In this document: in pieces, positions 86-64,000 of the stretch
Layout: every line of letters begins with the position of its first letter
Numbering within the stretch: the first letter of the stretch is position 1
Assembly (NCBI GenBank): GCA_964036665.1
Contig: OZ038527.1
Location: 8,153,835-8,217,834 of the forward strand
Length of the DNA stretch: 64,000 nt
Origin: Gordius sp. MW1
Taxonomy: Eukaryota; Nematomorpha; Gordioida; Gordea; Gordiidae
Direction: 5' to 3'
Translations under genes and position numbers: made by a program
The notes under the pieces: model-generated
Seen by the model: only the letters and a program-made list of their open reading frames with translations
Told to the model about the DNA's origin: nothing
Database searches by the model: none

Positions 86-277
86 GTAAGAAGGCAGAAC
101 CGGAAGAAAAATTAGTGCCAAGCGAGGAAGAAAAGGCTATCAAGGTTCCAATAAGTATAAATATAATTTGTCTGAGAGAATCTCATAAAATTTTAGGTAA
201 AAAGGAGGACATGGAAGTAGATGAAGTCAAAAAGAAAGTTCCCGAAGAAGAGAAACGAGAAAAAGTCAAAAAAGAAG
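86..277 (+). CDS. PEVK-like exons 1-2
   Basis: Exons 86-154 (23 codons) and 197-277 (27 codons), both phase 1 at each end. The peptide is rich in Lys, Glu, Val and Pro, with motifs such as KVP and KKKVPEEEK, and has no folded-domain signature. This matches the modular PEVK exons of titin-family genes, which code for an elastic disordered spring. The block is duplicated in tandem at 1188-1377. Introns are small; 278-492 holds nothing recognisable. Confidence 0.8.
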
Positions 278-3200
278 GTAAATAAATAGGCTAACCAAGT
301 CACACTACCAGACCCTCTTTGACATTAGGCGAAAAAAAGATATATTTTCAATAAATCTTATAATGGGAATCGTCAAATACTATATTACATCAGATCTGAA
401 TATGTTTGCAAATGACTAAACTTTTAAAAATCAATTAGGGCATGAAAAATCTATTTTTTTATTTTTTTTAAATACATTTTTTGAACCATTAGCTAAAAAA
501 TATGAAGTTCCTGAAACGATAGCTACTGAAAAGGAACCGTTAGAAGAAGAAGAAGTATCTAAAATACCAAGTATGTATATTTTAAAAAGTAAATTTTATT
601 AGATTAGAAGTAGTAAATAATAAATTGATTGAGCTGATTATTTTATTTAAGTATTTTATTTAATAATTAAACCATTGTTTAACAATTTAAAAGAAACGAA
701 AAAAGTTGAAGAGCTCGAAAAGGTTGCGGCCAAAAAGGTTGAAGAACCTGAGCCAGAACCTGCAGTTAAAGTCCCAAGTAATTTTTTTAATAGTGTTGAA
801 ATAATTATATTTTTTGCATCATTTTATAATATTGTATATTTATTTATAAATGTTATATCGTAACTTATCAAGGCTAAAAAACGTTTGCTAACTGATATCG
901 ATTACTTAATGTAGAATTGCTATCCTAAGAAACTCCTTACCCCTTTTAAATTTATATTTTAAATTAATTAAAGGTAAGAAGGCCGATATTTCTGAGGAAG
1001 TTGAGGAAAAAATGGCCGAACCAAAAGAGGTTTCTGCTAAAGTTCCGAGTAATTCATTATATATGCCTTCAAAAGTTTTGCCAAATGCTTTTTAAATGTT
1101 TTTTCGATTATTTAGTTGTAAGCAGATAAGATCTGATATTTAACATATCTTACAATTTTATTTATGCCAAAAACTATTAAAACATAGGTAAGAAGCCAGA
1201 ACTGGAAGAAAAATTAGTGCCAAGTGAAGAAGAAAAGGCTACCAAGGTTCCAATAAGTATAAATATAAGTCTGAGAGAATCCTCATAAAATTATAGGTAA
1301 AAAGGAGGAAATGGAGGTAGAAGAAGTGAAAAAGAAAGTTCCCGAAGAAGAAAAACTAGAAAAAGCCAAAAAGGGGGGTAAACAAATTTACTATTCCATT
1401 TTGTCTTCATTTATTTTTAAAAGATTGGATTGGGGGCGAAATGCCGTGTAATTACCTTATAAAAAGTCAAACGTAGGTTCTAATATGTTGAGTGCATTTG
1501 TCCCCTGCTCCTTTGAGAAAAAGCTTTTATTGCGTTTTTCTTTTCACTTTTTGGTTAAAAATGATCTATCTGTTAAACAAATGGGCGCTTTTGACCTAAA
1601 ATCATTTTAGTTTGTAAAAGAAAATTTCATATTACAATATAGGTTAAATAATAACTATATTTACAAATAATTAAATCAATTTGTTGTTTAATTAAAAAAT
1701 CACAATTATTAATGCTGACCAAAAATTTAACGGCCTGTGTCTTACTCACAAGTACGCCTATGGATTTCGAATCGAATCGAGTCAAATAATAAACTGAAGA
1801 TACTGATTAGATTCGAAATAAATTTAATGATTTGAATTCGATTCAAATATGTTTTAAGTTTTTTATAGGACACTACAAATGCATTTCAAAAAATTTATTT
1901 AAAAATATATTAAACAGAAATTAAATAACAATAGCATTGGACATTAGTATTTATTATGTGTCCAAATGAAATTTAAATAAGTATGTTTATGATTACGTAG
2001 TTAAAAAAATGATAGCGGGAAATTTATCTAAATTGCGGTAAGATAAAAACAGCTGTATTTTATGCGTCTTGTCTATATAAAATAAATTGAAGTTACATGA
2101 TTTTTCAAATCTTTTTTTTTAAGGATTCGATTTGAATTTTCGAATCTCAGCAAGTTAAGATTCTTTCGAAATTTACACATAAGGATTCATATTAGAATAT
2201 AAAATAAAATAATTATAAGTGTTTTAATGGCGTTTTATACAGAAAAGCCGTCACCTCCTACTGAACCTTTTGAAGTAAAGGATTCAACTGCGAACTCAGT
2301 TACTTTAACTTGGAAACCCCCGTTGAGCAATGGTGGAAGTCCAATAAGGTAAAATTTTACTTTTATATTTACATTTTCTTATAAAAAGTTAATATAGCTG
2401 CAATCTAAGATAATAATGAAAATGAAAATAAAGTTATTTGCAAATAAAGTTTCATTTTGATTGGAGATTAGATATTACTAGGCATATCTTAAGCTAGTGC
2501 CAAGTATCGTAAAAATTCAATTATAACATAAGAAGGCTTATTTTCAAGTTTTGCAAATTCATGTCTTGTCAAACAGTTTAGCTGTTAAAAAATTTAATTT
2601 TTAAAAAAAGCTTAAATATAAGACGGCGTTCACGAAGGTTACAATTTTGATTTCGGATCGGGTTGTAAAATGAAAATTTAGATGCCATTATTAATTCAAG
2701 TACAACTCAACCAATAATTTTCAGGAAAATTCTAATTTTGATAATTTTATCAATCTATAAGTAATTACATCCTCGAGAAGCGGGAAATCGATAAAACTAA
2801 CTGGGACTTGGTTAATAATATGCTGCCTTCAACCATGGGAGTGGCCAAAAATTTGAAGGAGAAACAAAAATATTACTTTAGAGTAAAAGCTGAAAATAAA
2901 TATGGCATTTCTGAACCGTTGGAAATGACCGAACCTGTAACCGTTATGGCCAAATATGGTAATAATGTTTCTTAACAATCTTGCATGATGGATTTATTAT
3001 TTTATTTTGTTGATAAAAATTAAATTCATTGAACTTTTAAATACGTTAATATTTCTGATAACAATTCACCTTTTGGAGAAATTTGAAATGCAAGATAAAT
3101 TTGTATACAATATTAACTTGGATGGATTTACAAGAAGATCAATTCTTACATTATGGATTATTTCATGGATTTTGATTTTTTATAAAAATAAATCATTTCT

Positions 3201-57200: not shown

Positions 57201-60200
57201 AACTTGACGCTGCGTAACGAGAAAGGTTTCGATAACTTATCCATAAAGCTTAAAGTAGTTGGTCCCCCGAGTTCACCCATAGGCCCTTTAAAAGTAATTG
57301 CCCAAAATCAAAGTAGTGTACGGCTATCTTGGCATTCACCAATCGACGATGGGAACTCAAGCATATTGGCATACGAAACCGAGCTTCGTAGGGTAGGCAC
57401 CGTGCGTGTGGATGAAGAAGGAATTGCTTTGCCGGATAATTATGCCAATACTCCCTGGTTGCAAGCCCAAGAATTTACGAACTTAAATCGGTAATTTTTT
57501 CATTTATAGTTACCCTAATGAAAGGCTTAATCAATTTTGAAAAGCCATTTAGGAAATGATTTGTAAACCGATCGAAATACTTTTCTAAACGTTAGGGCAG
57601 ACAATTACTAGATCAAATAAGAAAATTTGTATTTTTTTCACTAAGCTAAATTATAAAATTATTTTATTTGGATTAAATAAACTAAATAATATAGACTATC
57701 TTATTTATACTTATTTGATAAATTATTAGAGTTGTTTTGAATAACTTGGAAGAGGATGCCACATACATGTTCCGAGTAAGGGCTGTCAATAAATATGGCA
57801 GTAGCGAACCCTTAGAAACTTCGGGACCATTTACCCTGCACATTCATTATGGTAATTGTTCTTATTATTAAGCATATTTTCATAAAAATGGAAATTTCAA
57901 ATTATTAGTAAAACACGGGATAGAGAAATTAAATCCTATAAAATCGATGATAAGTATATAATATAGGATGGAATTAAAAAAAGTATATCTTAAATTTTTG
58001 TTGGAATCCTAGATAAACCCGGAGCCCCTGGACAACCCATAGCCATTTATATAGACGACGATTCTATCCATCTTAAATGGTCACCGTGTACCGATGATTG
58101 TGGAAATTCGATAGAAGAATATGCTTTAGAATATTTGGAAGAAGGAATCTGGACGCGATATTACGACGGAGGAAATCTAAATTCATTTTTGAACTCAACT
58201 CATATCATAGGTAAATTTAATTAAATTTTTGGATTGCTTTAATCTCTAAATTTAAATTAATATGAGCTTTGTCTTAAAAAATTTTGCAAAATATATTTTT
58301 GCTCCCCCCCCCCCCCCTTTACATTTAAATTTGTTTAAAGGTATTGAAATTTTTTTGAAAATCTCTAAGCATTTCTAAATCGAGCTATTTTATTATTAGT
58401 TTTTAAGCTAGGTAACCATTTCCTAATTCTGCTCATGTTCGTTAACATTCTTAATAACAAGAAAGGTTTAGCGACCTAAATCCTTATGACCAATAAATAA
58501 AACCCTAACATCTAAATCGTACATATTTATTTTACTGTCAGTGCGGGATTTGGAACCGTTCAAGAAATACGAATTTAGGGTTAAGGGCAAAAATGCGGGA
58601 GGTTGGAGCGAGTATGGCCCTACCTCAGAACCGATACAGTTAACATCCCGTATTAGAATACCGGGGAAAGCTGGTCCCCCAGACATTTTAAACGTTGGAA
58701 ATAATTTTGTCGAACTGCTGTGGAAACCTCCGATAGACGATGGTGGCGATCCATCTGTTGGTAAACAAAGACTTTGAGCTTGAACTTTCCATTTTTATAG
58801 ATAAAGAAATGTAAGACTTTATAAAAACGGAAAGTAATGACGCTAATATTAAAGAGAAATCAGTTTAAGTGTGCCTTCCAATATGGGATAATATTAATTT
58901 AGATCACAAAGCTCTTCTTACCTATTTATAAGCCGTCTCACAATATTTAAGAGTTACATTCATTCTTTGTAGCCATTTTGTAGCATACAACCATTAAGAT
59001 TTGTAAAATAGTATCTTTGCCTGATGTAATGGATTGGATCCTAAACAATTTCTGACAATTAACAGTTTGCGTGTGCAGTTTAATGTGTGTATAATATTTT
59101 CGTGTATTTTAGAATATACGCTCGAATATAAAGAATGTGGCTCAGAGTGTTGGATTAGGGCAGCGGATAGGATCAGAAGAAATCGGTACATGGTGGGAGA
59201 TTTGAAAGAGGGAAAACGCTACGAATTTCGCCTCATCCTATCGAATTTAGCTGGTAAGGGTGTAGCCGGCTTTCCTACTCCCATAGTCAAATTACATTCT
59301 TGGGCCAACGGTATGCCCGAAGAAAAGCCTAGGGTTATAAGATCATTAATGGACGCTACTTATGCCTTGGGTGCCACGCTAAATCTAGAATGTCAAATTT
59401 CGGCTAACCCTATCACAAAAATTAAATGGTAATATTTTTTTCCAATTTCTATTTTATACGTCATAATTAACAGGATCAAAAATGGGAATGAAGTTAAAGG
59501 TGATATGAGAGTAAAGATCTTGGAACCAGCTCCCGGGTTCTATTCGTTGTTTATTACGAAAGCTGATGAAGGCGATAAGGGCAAATATACAATTACACTA
59601 CAAAATGATCTGGGCATTATATCTTCAAGCGCATATGCCACTTTTATAAGTATGCTTCTAATTTATAATTTAAGCTTCTCTTGTAATACTATAAATCATT
59701 TAAATTTATAATAATTTTAGTCTGCTATCATTGTTTCACATAGTAACATGCCACTTGCTACCTCAGCAGTGAATTTTGGCGGTCTTATGAACGACGATAG
59801 AATCACCATTGTCCATATTTAATTCTGTTAAAATTTACGATTTTTTTAAAGGAGCCTATATTCGTCTTTTGAAGGACTTTTTAATAAAACACTTTGCTCT
59901 TTATATATTAAATAAAAGGCACTCTTTAATGATTATTCTACAGTTCCACCTGCCTTTATCGAAGTTCCAAAGAGTGTGATAACTTTCAAAGAGGGTCGCA
60001 TAGGAAAGTTTAAGGCTACGGTAGACGGTACGGCTCCTTTCGACTTTCAAGTCTTTAAAAATGGGTCGTCTTTGGTCTGTAGCGAAGGGTTGGACGAACA
60101 AGAAGCGCAACAACACATCCGAAATACAGCTGCGTTTGAAGACCAAGACGCATTTGACGATAGGCCATGTTCTAGGTTCAGCAATTCCCGCCTATCTTTG

Positions 60201-63200
60201 GGTAATTTTGTAAATGGGGAATAAATAGACCCACTGATTATTAATATAATGTAGAATTGTCAATCCGTTTATATGAATATTGTTGTATAAAATCGGTGAT
60301 TTTGAATTGGTAACGTAAGTAGAGGGAAATGGAACGCGATATTTCGGGCACTGATTATTAAATTTGTTGAAGAGTGTTTTCTAAGACTTGTCCTTAACAA
60401 GCAGTTATAAATAATTAGTTTTATGTGCTTGAGGGTTTTACATCACATGATTGCAAAAAAATAATATATCTCTATATTTAAAAATAGGGCGATTTAAATT
60501 TTGGCAAACGTTTTGGTCTTGAAAAAAATTCATAGTCCATATAGTCATCCCTAGCACAGAACAATGTTAACGCATGCAATTTTTGAAGTGAGTGTTAAAG
60601 TTTTAAAGATTTTAAATTGGCCATATAATAGCTGTTTGAGTTTATCTTCACCACGCTATAAATTATATACATTCTGCAACCAAGGACAATTAAAACACAT
60701 TATTATTAAAAACTGACATATTCTCAAAAAATTATTCATAGCTACTAAAAATAACTCTTTAGGTAGGACATCGATCAATGGAAGGGATAGTAGATGTAGT
60801 AACTCTAGCACTGTTTACTCTGATTCTATCACAACAATTGAGAAAATTAGCAAAAGATCTCGTTGCAGAATCCTTAAATCTCAGGATAGCGTGACTGTTA
60901 TATTTGGGCGCGTAACGTTGGGTGAAGCCGGGGAATACAGTGTACAAGCTAGCAACCGTAGTGGATTCGTTAGTGGTACATTTCGGGTCATCGTTATAGG
61001 TAAGAAAAATACCCAAAAAGTAAATATACATTTTTAAAAGAGGAAGAATGGTTATAACTGAGGTTATAACGCCTAGGCGATTGGTTATAAAATTTTTTAT
61101 CGATCTTACAATAACATCCTTTACCTTTACATTTTGTATATAAATTGCATTTAAATAATTTGCCAGTATTTATTTGAGCGAGTCTAATTCTTCAAGCGTG
61201 TCGTCTAGCTTTAGCTTTTTAATTGCTCGTTTACAAATTTGAAGGGCTGCCAACAGCTCCGCGTGGTCCTTTGGGTGTCGAAGTTATAAGCAAATCCGAA
61301 CTTTATCTGACCTGGATGAAACCGGAAGAGGAAGGTGGAACATCTATATCTCATTACGAGGTAGATCGTAAAATGCTCGGTAAAGATTATTGGATGTCCG
61401 TCACGTCGTTTTGCAAGGTATTTTATTAATTAAATTTTATTTAAAAATATTGACGTTTGCGACAACAAAACTGAAATTATAAGCATAGAGTAATATTAAG
61501 TGTATTCTCATGATTAATTTATGTGTAACTTAAATTAAAATAGAAAATGGTAACTTAAGTCATTAACTAAGCATCAATTTGATTCAACAAAAATTTAAAT
61601 ATTAATCTTGTTTAGAGTAACAATTGTACGGTATCTGATCTCTGTCCAAACAAACACTATTATTTCCGCATACGAGCTGTTAATGAACAAGGCAAAGGAC
61701 CCTATTTGGAACCACAGCAAGAGTTTATGATACCTGTGGACATAAGTTTGTTTTCTATATGTTGTGATATTAAATCTTCTTGTTTTATTTAATGCTTGTT
61801 ATTGCAGCAGTTACCATTTAGTCAGAGCGGAACCTATATATTTAGCCGCCATTTTTACCATTTAATGCACTAGCTCTAACATATATAGGATACTTGCAAT
61901 TACAACCTTTTCGAAGACAGCGGCAATTATATATAGTTATATAACTTAACACATCAGATAATTTTGGGACACCTTATTAATGCATCCTTACAAATGTCAA
62001 TGATTTCTAATTTAAAATTTCGTTAGCTCTTCCCGACCCTCCGACAAATTTGAGGTTTCAAGATGTAATAACGCTGGAAAATACTATTCAACTCAGTTGG
62101 GACGAACCTTTTAACAAAGGTAACGGCACCTTTTTAGGTTACTTGGTGGAGAGATGTGACGACTTCGGGCAAACCTGGGTCCCGGTTTCGACGATTCCCG
62201 TATCTGGCAATTCTATCCGAATTCATGATTTAATCCCCGAATCAAATTACGAATTTAGAGTTTATTCCTTAAACGAAATGGGCAAAAGTATTCGGGCAGC
62301 TCAGGTCACGAAGCGCAAAGAAGAGATTGCGTACCCTTTTAGTAAGCAACATTTATTTAAAAAGGATCGCATCCAAATGCTCAGTCAAAATTAATAATGC
62401 TCATCCGTTTATGATATTACTACTGTCAATATTTTGTAATATAATTCGTTGTACAAATAAGGTGGGGTTGGTGTCACATTAAATAGGCTTTAAGAAAAAA
62501 ATTTATTGTGTAAAGAAAATAGTTTGAATAAAGAGGTAATAAATATATAATACAAACGTTTACCTGCACCAAAGGTACTATTAATGATTTGAATTCGTTG
62601 TATGAAAGCGGCTCACTTTACTTCATTATTTTTTGTTTGATTTCATCCCCATTTCTTTTCCAAATGATGGGCTACATTTGCCCCTAATATCGCCCACTCG
62701 TTTTATCAAAAACGTAACAAATTATATTATCAGTTTATGATTGGTATTTATATGTGAGACGCCTTATATGATTTTCGCACGTAATCATTCGGTATCCGAC
62801 GGAAACAAAGTTCTTGTCAAATTAGTATTAACATAGTCGACACAATAAAACTAAGCCAAATTAATAAGAATAAGTATCAAAATAAATTTTTCTCTTCGAT
62901 TGAACGTCTTAGGGTGCCTCTTAATACGCGATTTTGAATCTAGATTAAAAAAGCAAATGCATGTTAAAACATAGCCGCGCCTTAATAGGAGCGTCACGTC
63001 ATTTTGTTCTATTTTTGTGTTTTTGCTCATAAAACAAATATTTATCCTTTAATTACGCTTATTAATGCATATTCATATGGTAACTAAACTAAAATTGTTG
63101 ATTCCACGAAATGTATATCGCATATTTAGACAAACAAAAATATGGCGCTTGAAGTTGAATCGTATATTATATCTTTTTTCTTCGACCAACCATTTTAATG

Positions 63201-63908
63201 CAGCACGCATACGCATATTTTTATGTAAATCTGAAAAATACAATATTTTGCAAAAGTCCATTAGTAGTACAAATAAAGGTCGGTTATAATCGAGTTTAAA
63301 CTTATACTTGAGTTATAACTAGTAAGAAATGTTATATAAATTTAGATGGCTCTATGGAAGTAATTCTGCCCTTACGAAACGTTTTTGTGATGGAAGGCAA
63401 ATCCCTTCATTTGGAAACTCATATAAAGTCACCAGTCAACTCAATAATCTGCTGGTATTATATTCATATATATCTGATTAAATTTGTTGCTGCAATCACC
63501 AGCATAAGTAAAATGTTTTTTTCACCCGTTTTCCATAGTTTAAAATATGCATAATTGCATGGGCATAACCATGATTTAAATTAAAGAAATTTTTTAAAAT
63601 TCGAACCAAAATTATGTTGAATATCTGCAAATTTTTTATTGGGGGGAGGGGTGGGTGATCTGCTTGTCCCTCGTCCCTTAGCTACGTCTATGTACATTGC
63701 ACAAAATAAAAGCTAAACTTTCAATGTTTTCGAAGGTTTAAAGATTTGATCGAAATATGCCCATCATCAAAATACACTATATTTACCATGGACTCTCGTC
63801 ATATTTTGATCGTCCACAATTTCGATGAATATGATCAAGGAGAATACACCTGTGTATGTCGCTACCTCGAAGATAATATTTCTACCAGTGCTACGATTCT
63901 TTTGAGAG
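86..63908 (+). CDS. titin/twitchin-like giant sarcomeric protein, partial at both ends (106 exons)
   Basis: One gene spans the whole window. Spliced by hand, 106 exons give 6,654 codons without a stop: a PEVK-like segment, then 43 Fn3 and 19 Ig domains. Fn3 domains show the LxW, DGGxPI, GYxVExR and YxFRVxAxNxxGxSxP signatures; Ig domains show PxxxWxxxG and DxGxYxLxxxNxxG. Family knowledge: titin, projectin and twitchin lie in muscle sarcomeres and bind myosin filaments through Fn3/Ig arrays. Most domains start after a phase-1 intron. The N-terminus, the C-terminus and any kinase domain lie outside the window. Which titin-family member this is remains open; twitchin/projectin cores are strictly Fn3-Fn3-Ig, whereas this array mixes two- and three-Fn3 blocks. 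Individual domains are listed separately, with exon borders. Confidence 0.93.
493..1048 (+). CDS. PEVK-like exons 3-5
   Basis: Exons 493-570, 694-777 and 974-1048, each 25-28 codons with phase-1 borders and each ending in a K(V/I)P motif just before the donor. The acceptor of the middle exon is inferred from the reading frame (AAAAG before 694) and is the least certain of the three. The composition is Glu/Lys/Pro/Val, without hydrophobic core residues, so a disordered spring segment is likely. Because all exons are phase 1, any of them could be skipped without breaking the frame. Confidence 0.72.
1188..1377 (+). CDS. PEVK-like exons 6-7 (tandem copy of exons 1-2)
   Basis: Exons 1188-1256 and 1297-1377 have the same lengths (69 and 81 bases), phases and nearly the same peptide as exons 1 and 2, with a few substitutions. 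The intron between them and the upstream intron are also similar, so this is a genomic tandem duplication rather than convergent repetition. After this exon the next coding sequence is the first Fn3 domain; no Ig domain separates the spring from the array. Confidence 0.8.
1764..2155. repeat. possible old MITE rich in GATTCGAATC-type subterminal repeats
   Basis: Within the intron 1378-2242, the two ends of this stretch carry several short direct and inverted copies of GATTCGA/TCGAATC (near 1766-1860 and 2118-2155) around an AT-rich centre. This resembles subterminal repeats of hAT-like MITEs. I could not find clean terminal repeats or a target duplication, so the borders are approximate. Confidence 0.35.
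2243..2958 (+). CDS. Fn3 domain 1
   Basis: Exons 2243-2348 and 2762-2958; the internal intron is phase 2 and cuts after NGGSPI. Motifs: LTWKPP, YILEKR and [16 protein letters not shown]. First folded domain after the PEVK-like segment. The intron 2349-2761 holds nothing recognisable. Confidence 0.92.
3350..3988 (+). CDS. Fn3 domain 2
   Basis: Exons 3350-3522 and 3859-3988 with a phase-0 internal intron later in the fold. Motifs: [32 protein letters not shown]. The reading frame continues through a GGTACA at the DGG site, so the intron found there in domain 1 is absent here. Intron 3523-3858 is plain AT-rich sequence. Confidence 0.92.
4049..4724 (+). CDS. Ig domain 1
   Basis: Exons 4049-4203 and 4592-4724, phase-0 internal intron after the C-strand region. 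Motifs: PSVIWTKNG with the core Trp, and [17 protein letters not shown], typical of I-set muscle Ig domains. It closes the first Fn3-Fn3-Ig block. Intron 4204-4591 shows no feature. Confidence 0.92.
4812..7499 (+). CDS. Fn3 domain 3
   Basis: Three exons, 4812-4922, 7208-7306 and 7389-7499, all phase 1. Motifs: [27 protein letters not shown]. It is one of the few Fn3 domains cut into three pieces. Its first intron (4923-7207) is one of the longest in the window and contains an old transposon-like repeat. It is the first Fn3 of a three-Fn3 block. Confidence 0.9.
6183..7019. mobile_element. old DNA-transposon/MITE-like repeat with GGAGACCG ends
   Basis: The left end reads GGAGACCGGGGATAG and the right end is the imperfect inverted form (CTATTTTAGCCACGGTCTCC at 7000-7019). 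The interior, with TAGTGCTAGCCATTCC near 6510 and a stretch at 6780-6930, is clearly similar to 12780-13366 in another intron and the same right end recurs near 34849. It has no convincing coding capacity; the reading frame on the opposite strand inside it has no recognisable domain. I see no clear target duplication. Confidence 0.6.
7566..8009 (+). CDS. Fn3 domain 4
   Basis: Exons 7566-7670 and 7812-8009; phase-1 intron immediately before the GY of GYIIERQ. Motifs: [30 protein letters not shown]. Middle Fn3 of a three-Fn3 block. Confidence 0.92.
8186..8747 (+). CDS. Fn3 domain 5
   Basis: Exons 8186-8316 and 8579-8747; phase-0 internal intron. Motifs: [37 protein letters not shown]. Third Fn3 of its block, preceding Ig domain 2. 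Confidence 0.92.
8913..9194 (+). CDS. Ig domain 2
   Basis: A single exon. The PEISWFLNG motif carries the core Trp. The usual DxGxY of the F strand is replaced by SLEGSLKI followed by [10 protein letters not shown], so the F-strand Tyr is missing, although spacing is kept. Downstream intron 9195-9734 holds a copy of the GC-tract repeat. Confidence 0.9.
9542..9680. repeat. GC-tract MITE family, copy a (partial)
   Basis: This stretch contains GGCTGCCCCCCCTCTAAATC, an AT-rich centre, then CCTCCCTAAATCATTATTG, a run of Cs, and ATGCTGGCTACG. It matches copies at 12311-12483 and 35502-35661; the left terminal repeat is eroded. Confidence 0.7.
9735..10414 (+). CDS. Fn3 domain 6
   Basis: Exons 9735-9840 and 10212-10414, phase-2 intron after DGGSPIT. 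Motifs: [29 protein letters not shown]. Intron 9841-10211 has no recognisable element. First of a three-Fn3 block, but its intron is of the two-Fn3-block type. Confidence 0.92.
10617..11045 (+). CDS. Fn3 domain 7
   Basis: Exons 10617-10789 and 10919-11045, phase-0 internal intron. Motifs: [36 protein letters not shown]. Intron 11046-11332 is plain AT-rich. Confidence 0.92.
11333..11644 (+). CDS. Fn3 domain 8 (single exon)
   Basis: The whole domain lies in one exon. The B-strand Trp is replaced by Tyr (LQLSYPEPP) and the DGG turn reads LDGKFAAP; the rest is canonical ([25 protein letters not shown]). It is an extra, intronless third Fn3 in the block and may derive from a retro- or exon-duplicated copy; this is inference. 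Intron 11645-11967 shows nothing. Confidence 0.9.
11968..12261 (+). CDS. Ig domain 3
   Basis: A single exon with PDIKWKFNN (core Trp) and [17 protein letters not shown]. The Asp of the usual DxG motif is His. The following intron (12262-13497) carries two repeats, listed separately. Confidence 0.92.
12311..12483. repeat. GC-tract MITE family, copy b
   Basis: The left end ATGGGCAGAGCC and the right end GGCTACGCTCAT are imperfect inverted repeats. Between them lie GGCAGGGAGGGGCGGCTGCC, an AT-rich core and C-rich blocks shared with copies a, d and e. It has no coding capacity. Confidence 0.75.
12700..13366. repeat. second copy of the GGAGACCG-ended repeat
   Basis: It shares with 6183-7019 the segments TAGTGTTAGCCATTCCTCA (near 12970), the GAGTTGGCATAC region (near 13095) and the right end CTATTCTAGCCCCGGTCTCC (13347-13366). 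The left end is not clear and may lie between 12590 and 12700. The two copies are strongly diverged, which suggests an old family. Confidence 0.55.
13498..14590 (+). CDS. Fn3 domain 9
   Basis: Exons 13498-13682 and 14479-14590, phase-0 internal intron. Motifs: [36 protein letters not shown]. The intron 13683-14478 contains a 123-bp palindromic MITE; the remainder is unremarkable. Confidence 0.92.
13844..13966. mobile_element. short palindromic GC-tract MITE (copy c)
   Basis: The ends CATGGGCGTTG and CAACGCCCATG are perfect inverted repeats. Internal G and C runs face each other, so the element is a near-palindrome. It is flanked by CATGGCTC (13836-13843) and CATGGCTT (13967-13974), a target duplication with 7 of 8 bases matching. 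Confidence 0.8.
14865..15515 (+). CDS. Fn3 domain 10
   Basis: Exons 14865-15035 and 15381-15515, phase-1 internal intron. Motifs: [32 protein letters not shown]. The usual AxNxxG turn after the F strand is replaced by [10 protein letters not shown], an uncommon variant. No DGG turn. Intron 14591-14864 is plain; intron 15036-15380 carries a two-copy tandem repeat. Confidence 0.88.
15305..15356. repeat. two-copy 26-bp tandem repeat
   Basis: GGCATTGGTCTAGAATT followed by an AT-rich spacer occurs at 15305-15330 and again at 15331-15356 with one clear substitution (TTC to TTT). It lies 25 bases upstream of the acceptor of the second exon of Fn3 domain 10. Confidence 0.8.
15734..16012 (+). CDS. 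Ig domain 4
   Basis: A single exon with PKMTWKYNG and [17 protein letters not shown], a well-preserved I-set domain. Ends the two-Fn3 block of domains 9-10. Intron 16013-16310 shows nothing. Confidence 0.93.
16311..16816 (+). CDS. Fn3 domain 11
   Basis: Exons 16311-16503 and 16716-16816. The phase-2 intron lies unusually late, just before PGDYKFRV. Motifs: [36 protein letters not shown]. The next intron (16817-17798) carries a hAT element. Confidence 0.92.
17096..17681 (+). mobile_element. hAT-type transposon fragment with complete ends
   Basis: The terminal inverted repeats TAGAGATGCACCGATACC (left) and its perfect complement (right) bound a 586-bp element. An identical 8-bp target duplication, GTAGCAAT, lies at 17088-17095 and 17682-17689. 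Many subterminal copies of GTATCGGC/GCCGATAC follow each end. This combination is diagnostic for the hAT superfamily. It is too short for a full transposase, so it is an internal-deletion derivative. Confidence 0.93.
17410..17574 (+). pseudogene. BED-type zinc finger remnant of a hAT transposase
   Basis: A 54-codon open reading frame starts [11 protein letters not shown] and contains CELC, then [10 protein letters not shown], that is Cys-x2-Cys with His-x4-His, the BED finger pattern found at the N-terminus of hAT transposases. It ends at a stop shortly after the finger; the catalytic core is missing. It could encode a stand-alone finger that still binds element ends, but there is no evidence of expression. 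Confidence 0.8.
17799..18104 (+). CDS. Fn3 domain 12 (single exon)
   Basis: The whole domain is in one exon. Motifs: [31 protein letters not shown]. The DGG turn is replaced by DLRGGRVA. The downstream intron 18105-18811 contains nothing I can identify. Confidence 0.93.
18812..19093 (+). CDS. Ig domain 5
   Basis: A single exon with PELEWSFGT and [16 protein letters not shown]; canonical. Intron 19094-19408 is unremarkable. Confidence 0.93.
19409..19838 (+). CDS. Fn3 domain 13
   Basis: Exons 19409-19514 and 19648-19838, phase-2 intron after GGKPIL. Motifs: [29 protein letters not shown]. The same intron position and phase occur in Fn3 domains 1, 6, 18, 22 and 27. Intron 19839-20169 is AT-rich without features. 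Confidence 0.92.
20170..20708 (+). CDS. Fn3 domain 14
   Basis: Exons 20170-20342 and 20579-20708, phase-0 internal intron. Motifs: [29 protein letters not shown]. No DGG turn. Confidence 0.92.
20983..21270 (+). CDS. Ig domain 6
   Basis: A single exon with PTVDWYKGG and [17 protein letters not shown]. The flanking introns (20709-20982, 21271-21630) hold no recognisable element. Confidence 0.93.
21631..22711 (+). CDS. Fn3 domain 15
   Basis: Exons 21631-21738 and 22520-22711, phase-1 intron after DGGSDIF. Motifs: [28 protein letters not shown]. Its intron contains a CCCGAACCC-type repeat. First Fn3 of a three-Fn3 block. Confidence 0.92.
21925..22412. repeat. CCCGAACCC-rich repeat, probable MITE
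   Basis: Many imperfect copies of ACCCGAACCC/AACCCGACC occur at the left and similar motifs (CGACCCCAAAACATTTC, GGTCGGGTCACTCG) at the right. Short inverted ends ACGCCTACA (left) and TGTAGGCCT (right) are visible. Borders are approximate. A related subterminal repeat is at 56331-56533. Confidence 0.5.
22814..23188 (+). CDS. Fn3 domain 16
   Basis: Exons 22814-22918 and 22991-23188; the phase-1 intron is only 72 bases and sits just before GYNIEKR. Motifs: [23 protein letters not shown]. Middle Fn3 of its block. Confidence 0.92.
23371..23858 (+). CDS. Fn3 domain 17
   Basis: Exons 23371-23522 and 23696-23858, phase-0 intron. Motifs: [33 protein letters not shown]. The usual A before xN is replaced by IPEN, as in Fn3 domain 10. 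The DGG turn is replaced by a longer Pro-rich loop. Intron 23859-24498 shows no feature. Confidence 0.9.
24499..24783 (+). CDS. Ig domain 7
   Basis: A single exon with PKVTWFFED and [16 protein letters not shown]. The Asp-x-Gly turn is MGG. Canonical length. The donor GTCTTG is weak but gives the right phase. Confidence 0.91.
25018..25391 (+). CDS. Fn3 domain 18
   Basis: Exons 25018-25123 and 25195-25391, phase-2 intron of 71 bases after GGSDLL. Motifs: [29 protein letters not shown]. Confidence 0.92.
25530..26075 (+). CDS. Fn3 domain 19
   Basis: Exon 25530-25702 and the first part of exon 25950-26189, joined by a phase-0 intron. Motifs: [30 protein letters not shown]. The reading frame open across 25703-25949 is intron, because the domain resumes in another frame at 25950. 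The boundary with Ig domain 8 carries no intron. Confidence 0.9.
26076..26570 (+). CDS. Ig domain 8
   Basis: Second part of exon 25950-26189 plus the first part of exon 26388-26679, phase-0 intron. The C-strand Trp is replaced by Phe (PKVEFYRSG). The F-strand motif [15 protein letters not shown] is kept. Neither domain border has an intron, unlike the first 25 kb of the array. Confidence 0.88.
26571..27737 (+). CDS. Fn3 domain 20
   Basis: End of exon 26388-26679 plus the first part of exon 27550-27945, phase-1 intron before GYHVEYR. Motifs: [21 protein letters not shown]. The intron 26680-27549 (870 bp) shows no recognisable element. Confidence 0.9.
27738..27945 (+). CDS. Tyr/Pro/Asp/Met-rich interdomain linker
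   Basis: About 69 codons continue in frame beyond the end of Fn3 domain 20 in the same exon. The sequence has repeated Pro-Tyr, Asp-Met and Arg-Met pairs (for example [20 protein letters not shown] and an acidic YEDECEDW) and no Ig or Fn3 signature. No other domain border in the window has such a linker. The donor at 27946 (GTATGC) is preferred; 27958 (GTTACT) would also fit the phase and add four codons. Intron 27946-28332 is plain. Confidence 0.8.
28333..28790 (+). CDS. Fn3 domain 21
   Basis: Exons 28333-28494 and 28656-28790, phase-1 intron in mid domain. Motifs: [29 protein letters not shown]. The AxN turn is TET, a divergent version. Confidence 0.89.
28882..29254 (+). CDS. Ig domain 9
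   Basis: Exons 28882-28987 and 29082-29254. The phase-2 intron splits the Trp codon of RDIEW. The F-strand region is [18 protein letters not shown], where the usual Tyr is His. A divergent but recognisable I-set fold. Confidence 0.85.
29330..29744 (+). CDS. Fn3 domain 22
   Basis: Exons 29330-29435 and 29551-29744, phase-2 intron after DGGAEIT. Motifs: [30 protein letters not shown]. Confidence 0.92.
29835..30571 (+). CDS. Fn3 domain 23
   Basis: Exon 29835-29939 and the first part of exon 30381-30723, phase-1 intron after DGGLPIL. Motifs: [30 protein letters not shown]. The frame then runs straight into Ig domain 10. Intron 29940-30380 holds nothing recognisable apart from a short C run before the acceptor. 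Confidence 0.9.
30572..31322 (+). CDS. Ig domain 10
   Basis: End of exon 30381-30723 plus the start of exon 31178-31431, phase-2 intron inside an Arg codon. Motifs: VTITWLKDN and [17 protein letters not shown]; the F-strand Cys is present. Both borders lack introns. Intron 30724-31177 is plain. Confidence 0.87.
31323..32372 (+). CDS. Fn3 domain 24
   Basis: End of exon 31178-31431, exon 31803-31915 and the start of exon 32307-32493. Internal introns are phase 1 (before GYTVEYQD) and phase 0 (after KRYM). Motifs: [20 protein letters not shown]. The FRV of the F strand is VKI. Introns 31432-31802 and 31916-32306 hold nothing recognisable. Confidence 0.87.
32373..33124 (+). CDS. Fn3 domain 25
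   Basis: End of exon 32307-32493 plus exon 32927-33124, phase-1 intron before GYFVEQRE. Motifs: [26 protein letters not shown]. The turn [11 protein letters not shown] is longer than usual and the DGG turn is absent. Intron 32494-32926 is plain. Confidence 0.88.
33281..33691 (+). CDS. Fn3 domain 26
   Basis: Exons 33281-33444 and 33556-33691, phase-0 intron. Motifs: [30 protein letters not shown]. Third Fn3 of a block. Confidence 0.91.
33692..34944 (+). other. intron with a remnant of the GGAGACCG-ended repeat
   Basis: This 1.25-kb intron has no exon. The sequence ATAACTAGCCCTGGTCTCC at 34831-34849 matches the right end of the repeats at 6183-7019 and 12700-13366, and a GACTAGCCTCATCCC near 34547 may belong to the same remnant. 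The rest is AT-rich without visible structure. Confidence 0.5.
34945..36143 (+). CDS. Ig domain 11
   Basis: Exon 34945-35106 and the start of exon 36028-36250, phase-1 internal intron. Motifs: PEFRWFFNR and [17 protein letters not shown]. The acceptor CCAG at 36027 is inferred from the frame. The internal intron (35107-36027) contains a GC-tract MITE. Confidence 0.88.
35502..35661. repeat. GC-tract MITE family, copy d
   Basis: Left end ATGGGCGTA and right end TAGCTACGCCCTTG are inverted repeats with mismatches. The interior GGCAGGGAGGGGTGGCTGCC, the ATCATTTTGCCCCCCC block and the CTCTAGTTCCAA block match copies a and b. Confidence 0.72.
36144..36552 (+). CDS. Fn3 domain 27
   Basis: End of exon 36028-36250 plus exon 36359-36552, phase-2 intron after DGGRPL. 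Motifs: [29 protein letters not shown]. No intron separates it from Ig domain 11. Confidence 0.91.
36660..37054 (+). CDS. Fn3 domain 28
   Basis: Exons 36660-36832 and 36925-37054, phase-0 intron. Motifs: [38 protein letters not shown]. The next intron (37055-40236) contains a whole Helitron. Confidence 0.92.
37694..38116. mobile_element. foldback insertion within Helitron 1
   Basis: Compared with Helitron 2, Helitron 1 has an extra segment here. It is flanked by a 13-bp duplication, TTTATTAAAAGTA, at 37681-37693 and 38104-38116. The insert is a large inverted repeat: arms 37722-37880 and 37950-38108 are almost perfectly complementary over about 159 bases, with a 69-base loop. It would form a strong RNA or DNA hairpin. 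The superfamily is not recognised; a related single-arm copy is at 60245-60348. Confidence 0.85.
38150..38742 (+). pseudogene. Helitron Rep (HUH nuclease) fragment, Helitron 1
   Basis: The frame reads [13 protein letters not shown] and then hits a TAG stop at 38225-38227; AHAHIL is the HUH two-histidine motif. After the stop the frame continues as the Helitron-like N domain, with [20 protein letters not shown] and CTKCFLKDF. The coding sequence is broken and ends where the MITE is inserted. Confidence 0.85.
38743..38880 (-). repeat. GC-tract MITE copy e, nested in Helitron 1
   Basis: Reading the other strand gives the same order as copies a, b and d: GGCTTACCCTATAAATCC, AT-rich core, CCCCTCCCTAAATTATT, then ATGCAGGCTACGCC. 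It interrupts the Rep fragment, so it inserted after the Helitron or arrived with a deletion. Confidence 0.7.
39020..39290 (+). pseudogene. Helitron coding fragment between Rep and helicase, Helitron 1
   Basis: In the plus strand the sequence [14 protein letters not shown] is readable, the conserved segment that lies between the Rep and helicase parts in Helitron proteins. Frameshifts follow. The reading frame on the opposite strand at 39020-39280 is only its shadow. Confidence 0.65.
39400..39550 (+). pseudogene. PIF1-like helicase fragment with Walker A, Helitron 1
   Basis: The stretch around 39488-39540 reads [17 protein letters not shown], the Walker A (GGTGKT) of PIF1-family helicases. 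A run of Ts just before it shifts the frame. The middle of the helicase is missing, since the C-terminal part follows directly at 39610. Confidence 0.8.
39610..39879 (+). pseudogene. PIF1-like helicase C-terminal fragment, Helitron 1
   Basis: An open frame of 89 codons contains [16 protein letters not shown] and [16 protein letters not shown], the conserved C-terminal helicase motifs (the T-x-N-KAQGQT and SRV region) of Helitron helicases. It ends at a stop near the element's 3' region. It lacks the N-terminal helicase lobes. Confidence 0.85.
40237..40524 (+). CDS. Ig domain 12
   Basis: A single exon. PKAYLTFNG replaces the usual PxxxWxxxG, so the core Trp is lost. The rest is canonical ([17 protein letters not shown]). 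It sits only 67 bases after the end of Helitron 1 and begins the interval between the two Helitrons. Confidence 0.9.
40686..41996 (+). CDS. Fn3 domain 29
   Basis: Exons 40686-40793 and 41033-41147 and the start of exon 41933-42108. The internal introns are phase 1 (before GYTIEKY) and phase 2 (splitting the Arg of YRIKAKN). Motifs: [29 protein letters not shown]. The second intron, 41148-41932, holds a GC-tract fragment with a C22 run. Confidence 0.9.
41691..41770. repeat. GC-tract repeat fragment with a 22-C homopolymer
   Basis: The piece contains AGGGGCCAGGATTTTG, then a run of 22 Cs at 41733-41754, then TTAGCTATGCCACTG. It resembles the right end of the GC-tract MITE family, but the left half is missing. 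Confidence 0.6.
41997..45114 (+). CDS. Fn3 domain 30
   Basis: End of exon 41933-42108 plus exon 44911-45114, phase-1 intron before GYFVEQRS. Motifs: [29 protein letters not shown]. The donor (GTATTT) at 42109 lies five bases before the end of an inverted Helitron. The 2.8-kb intron is almost entirely this element. Confidence 0.91.
42420..42620 (-). pseudogene. PIF1-like helicase C-terminal remnant, Helitron 2
   Basis: The minus strand reads a decayed version of the Helitron 1 fragment ([12 protein letters not shown] and a frameshifted PCFSHGQL region). It is more degraded than the copy in Helitron 1. Confidence 0.7.
43398..44350 (-). pseudogene. Helitron Rep region, Helitron 2
   Basis: On the minus strand the pieces include AHAHILI followed by the same TAG stop as in Helitron 1, [14 protein letters not shown], and further on [22 protein letters not shown]... 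interrupted by frameshifts, then a [12 protein letters not shown] segment read beyond 43398. It is non-functional as written. Sharing the stop with Helitron 1 suggests a common defective ancestor. Confidence 0.82.
45170..45331. mobile_element. GC-tract MITE copy g with target duplication
   Basis: The ends ATGGGCGTAGCCAGG and CCTGGCTGCGCACAT are inverted repeats. G runs near the left and C runs near the right make it strongly palindromic. It is flanked by AGATATTA (45162-45169) and GGATATTA (45332-45339), a 7-of-8 target duplication. Confidence 0.8.
45601..45954 (+). CDS. Fn3 domain 31 (single exon, enlarged)
   Basis: One exon of 118 codons. Motifs: [38 protein letters not shown]. About 20 extra residues ([18 protein letters not shown]) sit between the C' strand and the W of LNWIPL. 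Donor TGT|GTAAGC keeps phase 1. Intron 45955-46506 shows nothing. Confidence 0.9.
46507..46803 (+). CDS. Ig domain 13
   Basis: A single exon with PQAKWFLDG. The D-E region is longer than usual ([12 protein letters not shown] insert). The F strand reads [17 protein letters not shown], so the DxGxY motif is absent. Introns 46804-47250 and 45955-46506 are plain. Confidence 0.87.
47251..47730 (+). CDS. Fn3 domain 32 (single exon with a long acidic insertion)
   Basis: One exon of 160 codons instead of about 100. The start ([21 protein letters not shown]) and the end ([16 protein letters not shown]) are ordinary Fn3. Between them about 60 extra residues occur: first acidic ([20 protein letters not shown]), then DLDDLEYP and a basic/Pro stretch ([10 protein letters not shown]). 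It probably forms a long loop between strands C' and F. The frame is open throughout. Confidence 0.9.
47731..49692 (+). other. long intron with a GCCCG-rich repeat
   Basis: This 1.96-kb intron has no exon. Between about 49000 and 49385 there are GCCCGAACCCGCCCC, CCCGCCCGGGCTCG and GGCCCAGCCCGGCCCG motifs that resemble subterminal repeats of the CCCGAACCC family. TCCTGGCTATGCGCC near 49418 resembles an end of the GC-tract MITE family. The remainder is AT-rich and unremarkable. Confidence 0.5.
49693..50048 (+). CDS. Fn3 domain 33
   Basis: First part of exon 49693-50169, without an internal intron. Motifs: [31 protein letters not shown]. About 20 extra residues ([20 protein letters not shown]) sit between the C strand and the W of GWVLL. 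Confidence 0.9.
50049..50397 (+). CDS. Ig domain 14
   Basis: End of exon 49693-50169 plus exon 50218-50397, joined by a 48-base phase-1 intron, the smallest in the window. The C-strand reads PKPTVKISKDG with Ile where Trp is expected. The F strand is canonical: [17 protein letters not shown]. Confidence 0.87.
50498..50898 (+). CDS. Fn3 domain 34
   Basis: Exon 50498-50599 and the first part of exon 50681-51001, phase-1 intron of 81 bases. Motifs: LEWRAP, (C)[23 protein letters not shown]. The G of GY becomes Cys across the splice and FRV becomes FAI. The DGG turn is absent. The 5' acceptor (TTAAG) is inferred from the frame. Confidence 0.86.
50899..51780 (+). CDS. Fn3 domain 35
   Basis: End of exon 50681-51001 plus exon 51502-51780, phase-1 intron before GYMIEKQM. 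Motifs: [22 protein letters not shown]. An acidic insertion with [12 protein letters not shown] occurs after the C strand. Intron 51002-51501 has no recognisable element. Confidence 0.88.
51781..52577 (+). other. intron without recognisable element
   Basis: Nothing but AT-rich sequence was seen here. A GTCAATTACTATTTTGCTCGCG block near 51935 and a similar ACTATTCGCGACGTTAATTG near 52008 hint at an old repeat, without clear ends. Confidence 0.4.
52578..52940 (+). CDS. Fn3 domain 36 (single exon)
   Basis: One exon of about 121 codons. Motifs: [36 protein letters not shown]. About 20 extra residues lie between the E and F strands. Two donors fit the phase, 52941 (GTGGAA) and 52953 (GTAATA); the second would add four codons. 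Confidence 0.87.
53197..54678. mobile_element. hAT-like element with GAACTAGTTC subterminal repeats
   Basis: The ends TAGAGCTGTTAA and TTAACAGCTCTA are inverted repeats. A perfect 8-bp target duplication GCCCTATC lies at 53189-53196 and 54679-54686. About 200 bases at each end are packed with GAACTAGTTCA and GAACTTGAAC copies. The centre is AT-rich and non-coding. The combination indicates a non-autonomous hAT element. Confidence 0.9.
53455..53580. repeat. CTCGTCTCGAGA-type repeat nested in the hAT-like element
   Basis: About 120 bases with repeated (T)CTCG(G)TCTCGA and inverted TCGAGAC/CTCGAC motifs, quite unlike the surrounding AT-rich sequence. It looks like the subterminal region of a different MITE, but only one end is visible. 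Confidence 0.5.
54764..55148 (+). CDS. Ig domain 15
   Basis: Exon 54764-54924 and the start of exon 55029-55188, phase-0 intron. Motifs: CSVEWKKDG and [17 protein letters not shown]. There is no intron between this and the next domain. Confidence 0.9.
55149..55588 (+). CDS. Fn3 domain 37
   Basis: End of exon 55029-55188, exon 55269-55411 and the start of exon 55478-55697. The introns are phase 1 and phase 0. Motifs: [22 protein letters not shown]. The A strand is short ([10 protein letters not shown]) and the DGG turn is NNDGTE. Both introns are under 90 bases. Confidence 0.86.
55589..56220 (+). CDS. Fn3 domain 38
   Basis: End of exon 55478-55697 plus exon 56005-56220, phase-1 intron before GYRVEQCD. 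Motifs: [30 protein letters not shown]. Intron 55698-56004 is plain. Confidence 0.91.
56331..56533. mobile_element. short MITE with CAGGGGTTTG ends and CCCGAACCC subrepeats
   Basis: The ends CAGGGGTTTG and CAAACCCCTG are perfect inverted repeats. Six-base direct repeats GTTTTA flank it (56325-56330 and 56534-56539). The interior is made of many CCCGAACCC copies, in the same orientation at both ends. It lies in intron 56221-56762. Confidence 0.75.
56763..57260 (+). CDS. Ig domain 16
   Basis: Exon 56763-56881 and the first part of exon 57087-57490, phase-0 intron. Motifs: PVAIWTKG with the Trp, and [17 protein letters not shown]. The following Fn3 begins in the same exon. Confidence 0.91.
57261..57851 (+). 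CDS. Fn3 domain 39
   Basis: End of exon 57087-57490 plus exon 57730-57851, phase-2 intron late in the fold. Motifs: [37 protein letters not shown]. An insertion of about 15 residues ([16 protein letters not shown]) precedes the W of PWLQ. Confidence 0.9.
58013..58657 (+). CDS. Fn3 domain 40
   Basis: Exon 58013-58210 and the first part of exon 58542-58760, phase-1 intron. Motifs: [33 protein letters not shown]. Intron 58211-58541 contains a C14 run at 58304-58317. There is no intron at the border to the next Fn3. Confidence 0.9.
58658..59309 (+). CDS. Fn3 domain 41
   Basis: End of exon 58542-58760 plus the first part of exon 59113-59428, phase-1 intron after DDGGDPSV. Motifs: [28 protein letters not shown]. 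The AxN turn is LSN. Intron 58761-59112 is plain. Confidence 0.89.
59310..59649 (+). CDS. Ig domain 17
   Basis: End of exon 59113-59428 plus exon 59474-59649. The 45-base phase-2 intron splits the core Trp codon (TKIKW-IKNG). F strand: [17 protein letters not shown]. No intron at its left border. Confidence 0.91.
59944..60999 (+). CDS. Ig domain 18 with a Ser/Gln/Asp-rich expanded middle
   Basis: Exons 59944-60201 and 60763-60999, phase 1. The start [16 protein letters not shown] and FDFQVFKNG mark strands A to C, with the core Trp replaced. The end [18 protein letters not shown] marks strands F and G. Between them lie about 80 residues of low-complexity sequence rich in Ser, Asp, Arg and Gln. 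It follows Ig domain 17 directly, the only Ig-Ig pair in the window. Intron 60202-60762 holds a short mobile element. Confidence 0.85.
60245..60348. mobile_element. short unclassified insertion with a 13-bp target duplication
   Basis: The 104-base insert is flanked by CACTGATTATTAA at 60232-60244 and 60349-60361. From 60260 on (TCAATCCGTTTATAT, GTATAAAATCGGTG, AGAGGGAAATGGAACGCGAT) it matches the arm of the foldback insertion in Helitron 1 (37709-37800). Both sites have 13-bp duplications, so both are real insertions of one family. Confidence 0.85.
61245..61745 (+). CDS. Fn3 domain 42
   Basis: Exons 61245-61417 and 61616-61745, phase-0 intron. Motifs: [36 protein letters not shown]. The acceptor GAAG at 61244 is inferred from the frame. 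The final donor GTTTGT is atypical but keeps phase 1. Intron 61746-62026 is plain. Confidence 0.89.
62027..62341 (+). CDS. Fn3 domain 43 (single exon)
   Basis: One exon. Motifs: [37 protein letters not shown]. The DGG turn is KGNGT. The next intron (62342-63345, 1.0 kb) has no recognisable element; the overlapping open frames there are not coding. Confidence 0.92.
63346..63908 (+). CDS. Ig domain 19
   Basis: Exons 63346-63454 and 63736-63908. The phase-2 intron splits the core Trp codon (SIICW-WFKD region). F strand: [15 protein letters not shown] with Cys. The final donor at 63909 (GTAAAC) keeps phase 1, so the gene continues beyond the window. The internal intron contains GGGGGGAGGGGTGGG...TTAGCTACG at 63641-63688, a fragment of the GC-tract MITE family. 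Confidence 0.88.
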
Positions 63909-64000
63909 GTAAACAACAAAATTGAATCTTTATACCCTCGTTTTTTTAAATTGTTTTTTATACGTTTGATTCGACTAATGCTTATTTTTGAATTACCTTA

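Follow-up and report, generated by a model that had tools for sequence, protein, structure and literature searches.

The 64,000-nucleotide stretch of the Gordius sp. MW1 genome analysed here (the window; G000:C1:8153835-8217834, + strand, in an assembly of 212 Mb and 12 contigs) carries a giant array of immunoglobulin (Ig) and Fn3 domains predicted to belong to one gene, hereinafter designated W. Judged from its predicted domains, W is likely to be a fast-evolving paralogue of hairworm twitchin whose kinase end was lost and to which a spring and further A-band repeats were added.

Results

Domain order of W

Domains were modelled with our own spliced-profile aligner, in which Fn3 and Ig profiles are threaded through GT-AG introns in three phases. 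The aligner was run on 224 kb around the window first, and then on 110 kb with better profiles, trained on both loci (W and twitchin). The model places 43 Fn3 and 19 Ig domains on the + strand of the window. Upstream of the window stand six consecutive Igs, perhaps one further Ig, and then three Fn3s, which gives W a total of 46 Fn3 and 26 Ig, or 72 domains; W is thus predicted to begin upstream of the window.

The numbers of Fn3 domains per block between Igs in the window are 2,3,3,2,2,2,3,2,2,2,3,2,3,2,3,2,3, followed by Ig-Ig, 2 and Ig, and the longest consecutive stretch of 2-blocks is three. An earlier sequence-only reading of the window had listed the same order, which the model reproduces with one Ig added after the final Fn3 pair. 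Its broader proposal, a giant A-band-type Ig/Fn3 gene that has two- and three-Fn3 blocks and is no plain twitchin, is borne out by the domain model. The main segments, with blocks of W labelled B and blocks of twitchin labelled b, are as follows.

2243..4720, + strand: block B1b, two Fn3 (2257-2930, 3364-3960) and Ig (4084-4720), immediately following the PEVK segment
4826..12257, + strand: blocks B2 and B3, three Fn3 and Ig, twice
13512..23830, + strand: blocks B4-B7 (2,2,2,3), collinear with hairworm twitchin b9-b12
24537..52918, + strand: putative insertion relative to twitchin, B7 Ig to B15 last Fn3, 27 domains, from alignment and Fn3 types
25032-33663, + strand: second 2,2,2,3 of the sequence-only reading, probably a pair of (2,3) modules with a single Fn3 missing
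54796..60995, + strand: B15 Ig, B16 (2), Ig, B17 (3), Ig-Ig, collinear with twitchin b12.I-b14
61259..63908, + strand: B18, two Fn3 and the last Ig (63375-63904), from the spliced-profile model

Reliability of the domain calls

As a control, domains were scored with profiles from the other locus only, which gave 63 window rows (one Fn3 was split in two). The chance threshold of 39.9 bits is the best score of 84 spurious domains in ten 110-kb third-order Markov sequences. Above it lie 48 of the 63 rows; the 15 rows below include Ig 28911 (13.1 bits), Ig 63375 (21.0 bits), Ig 30617 (23.6 bits), and Fn3 52592 (26.5 bits), and the weak-scoring domains stand in register within the array. On the reverse strand, the same profiles found two domains, at 15.5 and 17.8 bits; profiles from both loci found four there and seven in one random sequence, as counts of domains that were not scored singly.

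The three-Fn3 blocks were also compared with Pfam: fn3 matched all ten submitted middle or last Fn3s (out of 14), with E from 1.3e-14 to 7.1e-4, and six of the ten passed the curated fn3 cut-off. For the third Fn3 at 52592, which scores weakly, AlphaFold2 predicts mostly beta strands, at low confidence (pLDDT 63).

Four calls of the 224-kb run, far from the array or broken up by many introns, were dropped as spurious: an Ig at -58274, an Ig at -14389 (7.3 bits in the control scoring), an Fn3 at 85692 with 9 introns, and an Fn3 at 103531 with 7 introns. Dispersed repeats translated by the aligner, for example at -14485..-12024 and beyond 64000, were not counted as exons, nor were those inside the twitchin model between both Fn3s of the sixth block.

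The titin-like family in this genome

Besides W, the family includes the following loci.

C1:682832-615559, - strand: hairworm twitchin, kinase-bearing, from the spliced-profile model
C7:14.79-14.876 Mb: third locus, an Ig-rich array ending in three Fn3, from its layout

Twitchin lies on the same contig as W, about 7.5 Mb away. Its order is four Ig, a S/T/P-rich linker, six Ig, Fn3 blocks of 2 (seven times),3,2,2,2,3,2,3, then Ig-Ig, 2, Ig-Ig, 1, kinase, and five Ig; the locus was read up to C1:685000, and more may stand upstream. A middle exon of the predicted kinase appears to be missing. The locus is identified as twitchin from a 909-aa end region running from Fn3 to Ig: among kinase-holding solved chains, the highest scores are those of twitchin 3uto (565 bits), 1koa, and 1kob, as against 229 bits with titin kinase 6ygn. 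Two rows above the twitchin chains are titin A-band chains, which match the Fn3/Ig part of the region. The eighth block of twitchin (C1:646179-644507, - strand) has an extra Fn3, and the middle one, b8.F2of3, groups with b11.F2.

The sequence-only reading held the cores of twitchin and projectin to be strictly Fn3-Fn3-Ig. The hairworm's own twitchin contradicts this, with 3,2,2,2,3,2,3,IgIg,2,IgIg,1 before the kinase. For projectin, one source counts 39 Fn3 in total (PMC9886281) and another describes a core of 14 x 2 Fn3 modules (PMC3835035); the remaining 11 would fit 3+2+3+2+1.

No kinase was found in the 20 kb examined at the Ig-rich C7 locus, which from its layout alone is apparently Sls-like. 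Part of this locus (C7:14846018-14867000, + strand) contains near-identical Ig copies every ~537 bp, some equal scores recur every 3,228 bp, and the array looks like the product of recent tandem growth. The hairworm thus apparently has three titin homologues, namely twitchin, the Sls-like gene, and W. A 2025 survey assigns two titin homologues, one I-band and one A-band, to all Ecdysozoa (PMC12063666).

In the open-access literature searched, no papers were found that treat Nematomorpha together with titin, a broader search returned no title on hairworm titin among the matches listed, and a search on hairworm thick filaments returned no title on hairworms among the matches listed. Two further loci in this genome carry kinase matches: C1:22409952-22414418 (+ strand) has five tandem Pkinase matches in one open frame of 1838 aa, and C7:16514617-16516008 (+ strand) combines Fn3 and kinase matches within one 1281-aa open frame, which is unusual in a family rich in introns.

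W is collinear with twitchin

The 72 domains of W were scored against 66 domains of twitchin, and the domain strings were aligned with affine gaps at three gap costs. At the middle cost, the alignment scores 41.7, compared with a mean of 16.0 (sd 3.4, maximum 28.2) for 200 shuffles that preserve domain type and position in block; 0 of 200 reach 41.7. The main segments are unchanged at all three gap costs. Specifically, the six N-terminal Igs are aligned, B1b-B2 are set on b7-b8, B3.I..B7.F3 on b8.I..b12.F3 (13 domains, summed z 18.3), with the B3 Ig on the b8 Ig, and B15.I..B18.I on b12.I..b15.I (12 domains, summed z 17.3). The pre-kinase order 3,2,3,IgIg,2,Ig of twitchin is present in W. This collinearity, domain by domain, is what argues for W being a paralogue of twitchin.

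A linear-gap alignment that set B7 on b8, and not on b12, was replaced, because the affine ungapped placement is stronger: over 17 domains, B3-B7 on b8-b12 have a summed z of 20.1, compared with 8.1 for B7-B11 there. The linear-gap score (68.6, compared with a mean of 49.4 and a maximum of 61.3 for class shuffles) agrees with collinearity.

The Fn3 tree, in which 45 of 77 inner branches are open and the bootstrap is unsettled, contains the expected pair of B16.F1 and b13.F1 (99/91). It also groups B1.F3 with b12.F2 (97/91), and B17.F2 and F3 with b14.F2 (97/85), B17.F2 and F3 being flagged as long branches that meet. Against collinearity, it groups B13.F2 with b13.F2 (95/87), B11.F3 with B5.F2 near b7.F2 (98/82), and b15.F1 with b10.F1 (97/77), not with B18.F1. 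The second and third Fn3s of B2 group with b12 in the tree, yet B2 is placed on b8 by the alignment. In a comparison with solved chains, the end of W matches titin A-band best (287 and 268 bits) and twitchin 3uto at 45 bits, over one Fn3; this comparison has no long twitchin array among the matches listed.

Alternatively, W could be the counterpart of the A-band-like, Fn3-bearing part of nematode I-band titin (TTN-1), ancestral and not a copy of twitchin. Some Fn3 domains and a kinase are present in TTN-1 as well, and a PEVK segment such as that of W is typical of I-band titins. The collinearity of W with twitchin, from the N-terminal Ig to b15.I, speaks against this origin, as do the separate Sls-type Ig-rich array on C7 and the domain content of W, with its 46 Fn3 and 26 Ig. 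We consider descent from a TTN-1-like gene unlikely, and the twitchin paralogue remains the preferred reading.

The extra domains of W as probable copies of twitchin's (2,3) module

The 27 extra domains of W (B7 Ig to B15 last Fn3) stand between the positions of b12 and b13. Probably the seven-domain (2,3) module b11-b12 of twitchin was copied here four times, less one Fn3. From B6 to B15, the raw score differences of the last Fn3 (b11 versus b12 type) are +71,-94,+40,-40,+19,-43,+60,-35,+35,-4. Over 18 blocks, this alternation has a lag-1 autocorrelation of -0.56 (p 0.0075; p 0.03 when shuffled within block size), and a sign-runs test is not significant (p 0.16). In the tree, the last Fn3s of B1b, B6, B8, B10, B12, and B14 group with b11.F2 (87/94), in a group that also holds b8.F2of3, B1.F2, and B3.F2. 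Block B9 (26586-28762) has two Fn3s, and because the last one is of the b12 type, B9 reads as a 3-block minus one Fn3. Neither the first Fn3 (p 0.17) nor the Ig (p 0.47) shows a b11/b12 preference by block size, which makes the module account likely rather than proven. The fit to b11-b12, as summed z over seven domains, is 11.3 for B6-B7 but weak for B10-B11 (4.1) and B14-B15 (2.3).

The sequence-only reading had instead seen a 13-domain 2,2,2,3 super-repeat, followed by 7-domain repeats, as a new molecular ruler along the thick filament. The block sizes can be read that way, and lag 13 has the highest mean domain similarity over lags 1-30 (0.82, compared with 0.77 at lag 3 and 0.60 at lag 7). 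Despite this, 2,2,2,3 is probably no genuine repeat and was set aside on the twitchin alignment and the Fn3 types: the first 2,2,2,3 sits on twitchin's own b9-b12, and the second, given the b12-type last Fn3 of B9, would be a shortened 2,3,2,3, that is, two (2,3) modules. Moreover, with 4 nm for each domain, the array from the first Fn3 (46 Fn3 and 19 Ig, ~65 domains) would extend over just ~260 nm (0.26 um). A ruler along the whole thick filament is unlikely because it would need a far longer array; C. elegans myosin filaments are ~15 um long, and a classical ruler has been excluded for them (PMC12063666). Taken as a whole, the super-repeat ruler is very improbable, and copying of the (2,3) module of twitchin better describes the extra domains.

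A predicted PEVK spring between Fn3 domains

Between the third upstream Fn3 and the first exon of the sequence-only reading (2243), W has a segment of nine small exons, 69-105 nt long, with every length divisible by three.

-536..-459 and -368..-264, + strand: PEVK exons A1 and B1, upstream of the window
86..277, + strand: PEVK exons C1 (86-154) and D1 (197-277), with a 42-nt intron by homology to C2/D2
493..777, + strand: PEVK exons A2 (493-570) and B2 (694-777), duplicates of A1 and B1
974..1377, + strand: PEVK exons E (974-1048), C2 (1188-1256), and D2 (1297-1377), with lengths that are multiples of 3 and phase-1 introns

The model reads 86-277 as a single exon, and the split into C1 and D1 was placed by homology to C2 and D2. 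All nine introns in the model are in phase 1; the tenth is the one placed by homology. The residues P, E, V, and K make up 75% of 231 aa, or 69% of 270 aa. A published definition of PEVK asks for >40% of these residues over 250 aa (PMC12063666); the W segment exceeds 40%, a lax limit, since a window in the Fn3 array of twitchin reaches 43%. This is the best 231-aa window of hairworm twitchin, whose linker has 32%, so that twitchin has no comparable PEVK segment. The 270-aa gap before 2257 had also been considered as a hidden, missed Ig, which was rejected because the gap is the PEVK segment.

Eight of the nine exons derive from a tandem duplication, four in each copy. Between the copies there are 17 changes in 239.8 non-synonymous sites and 16 in 60.2 synonymous sites (dN/dS 0.23, Fisher p 8e-5), which points to coding sequence under purifying constraint. 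About 100 to 30 bases upstream of the window start is an apparent relic of exon E, with the 3' end readable and the 5' end missing. We know of no relative with a PEVK segment between Fn3 domains, and this predicted spring of phase-1 exons appears to be new in that position.

That W is instead a decaying gene copy, with fast evolution, weak domains, and a lost kinase, is very improbable: its Fn3 tips are ~3x as long as those of twitchin in the tree (medians 1.65, n=46, and 0.58, n=34) and some of its domains are weak, but the duplicated PEVK exons are constrained, and the 62 window domains join in one model without frameshift or in-frame stop, which shows that such a chain exists, given that the aligner permits neither.

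The C-terminal end of W

The sequence-only reading had proposed to look for a kinase in the rest of the gene, and none was found: across 224 kb, a tblastn search with the hairworm's own twitchin kinase gave no match at E 10, while the twitchin locus itself, as positive control, was recovered at 5e-63, and there were no kinase matches near W among the 126 of 539 candidates scored. A kinase as fast-evolving as the other domains of W could escape tblastn. No further convincing Ig, Fn3, or kinase was found in the 80 kb after B18, and no C-terminal Ig tract was found for W.

Probably at least one more exon of W follows, since a phase-1 GT donor stands at 63909, after the last Ig, where twitchin also has a phase-1 intron. 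Unspliced, the frame would read through 63909 to a stop five codons on. The open frame at 64320-64580 was rejected as the terminal exon, as its codon score is within background.

Discussion

W shares the N-terminal Ig tract and the Fn3/Ig array with twitchin (UNC-22) and projectin (bent), and with hairworm twitchin in particular the collinear domains and the end pattern 2,3,IgIg,2,Ig in the same order. It differs from them in that it has no detected kinase or C-terminal Ig tract, most of the core 2-blocks are gone, and it carries 27 additional domains, interpreted as four (2,3) modules. The core of projectin is described as a run of 14 Fn3-Fn3-Ig (PMC3835035), whereas the longest 2-block run of W is three. 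The PEVK segment of insect projectin is placed between two Ig tracts in the same source (PMC3835035), whereas that of W lies inside the Fn3 array. With Sallimus (Sls) and Ce-titin, W shares a PEVK spring and an N-terminal Ig tract; however, Sls is Ig-rich, with five Fn3 reported at its end (PMC9886281), whereas in W Fn3 domains outnumber Igs.

The seven-domain Ig-2Fn-Ig-3Fn pattern of W is also that of the vertebrate titin D-zone (PMC7427331). The modules of W resemble b11-b12 of hairworm twitchin, and this likeness of pattern does not imply inheritance from titin. Unlike vertebrate titin, W has no run of eleven-domain (2,3,3) C-zone repeats, and no kinase or M-band part was found.

By analogy with these proteins, W may be a thick-filament-bound strap with a spring on its N-terminal side and no signalling end; its binding, position, and elasticity are inferred. 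At ~4 nm per domain, each Ig-2Fn or Ig-3Fn group of titin is positioned close to a single 14.5-nm myosin level (PMC7427331). The Ig/Fn3 array of W would similarly lie on the myosin filament, with one such group per ~14.5-nm level, and a (2,3) unit, at 7 x 4 = 28 nm, would cover about two of these levels. The super-repeats of projectin are reported to cover 250 nm at the A-band edge in flight muscle (PMC9886278); the ~260-nm array of W might decorate the A-band edge or tile along the filament, like projectin and twitchin. Through the PEVK segment, the N-terminal Ig/Fn3 part would be connected elastically to the array on myosin. Lacking a kinase, W would serve as a structural and elastic link, with signalling left to twitchin.

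More tentatively, and more likely wrong than right, W could represent a third class of titin homologue in hairworms, a kinase-free, twitchin-derived protein that serves as a dedicated elastic strap of muscle and converged on the plan of vertebrate titin (Ig tract, PEVK joined to a thick-filament array, D-zone-like super-repeats). If so, this third homologue would be an exception to the rule of two per ecdysozoan, uniting repeats of the A-band and a spring of I-band type in a single chain, and titin-like super-repeats could arise by tandem copying of the pre-kinase (2,3) module of twitchin. The alternation of two- and three-Fn3 groups in vertebrate titin could be better understood by comparison with W.

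The mitochondrial contig

One contig of the assembly (C12, 14,798 bp) is mitochondrial and was read with the invertebrate code; cox1 was identified by Pfam and the other genes were named by eye from reading frames. In 10.8 kb of mostly protein genes, it contains 30 inverted-repeat pairs of at least 20 nt, with arms of up to 107 nt; 25 of the 30 pairs are fully complementary, and many overlap one another. Coding palindromes in mitochondrial genomes are described as a mark of Nematomorpha (PMC6649704; PMC10380579), and on this evidence the animal is most likely a hairworm. An Rfam search of this contig found only two rRNA pieces. Just before cox1 (L034:3635-4088) is a tandem repeat with a repeated peptide in three frames, which is perhaps the control region. 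Nuclear copies of cox1 are many on C1, C3, C4, C5, and C8, and the one at C8:2829490-2830827 is as long as the mitochondrial match.
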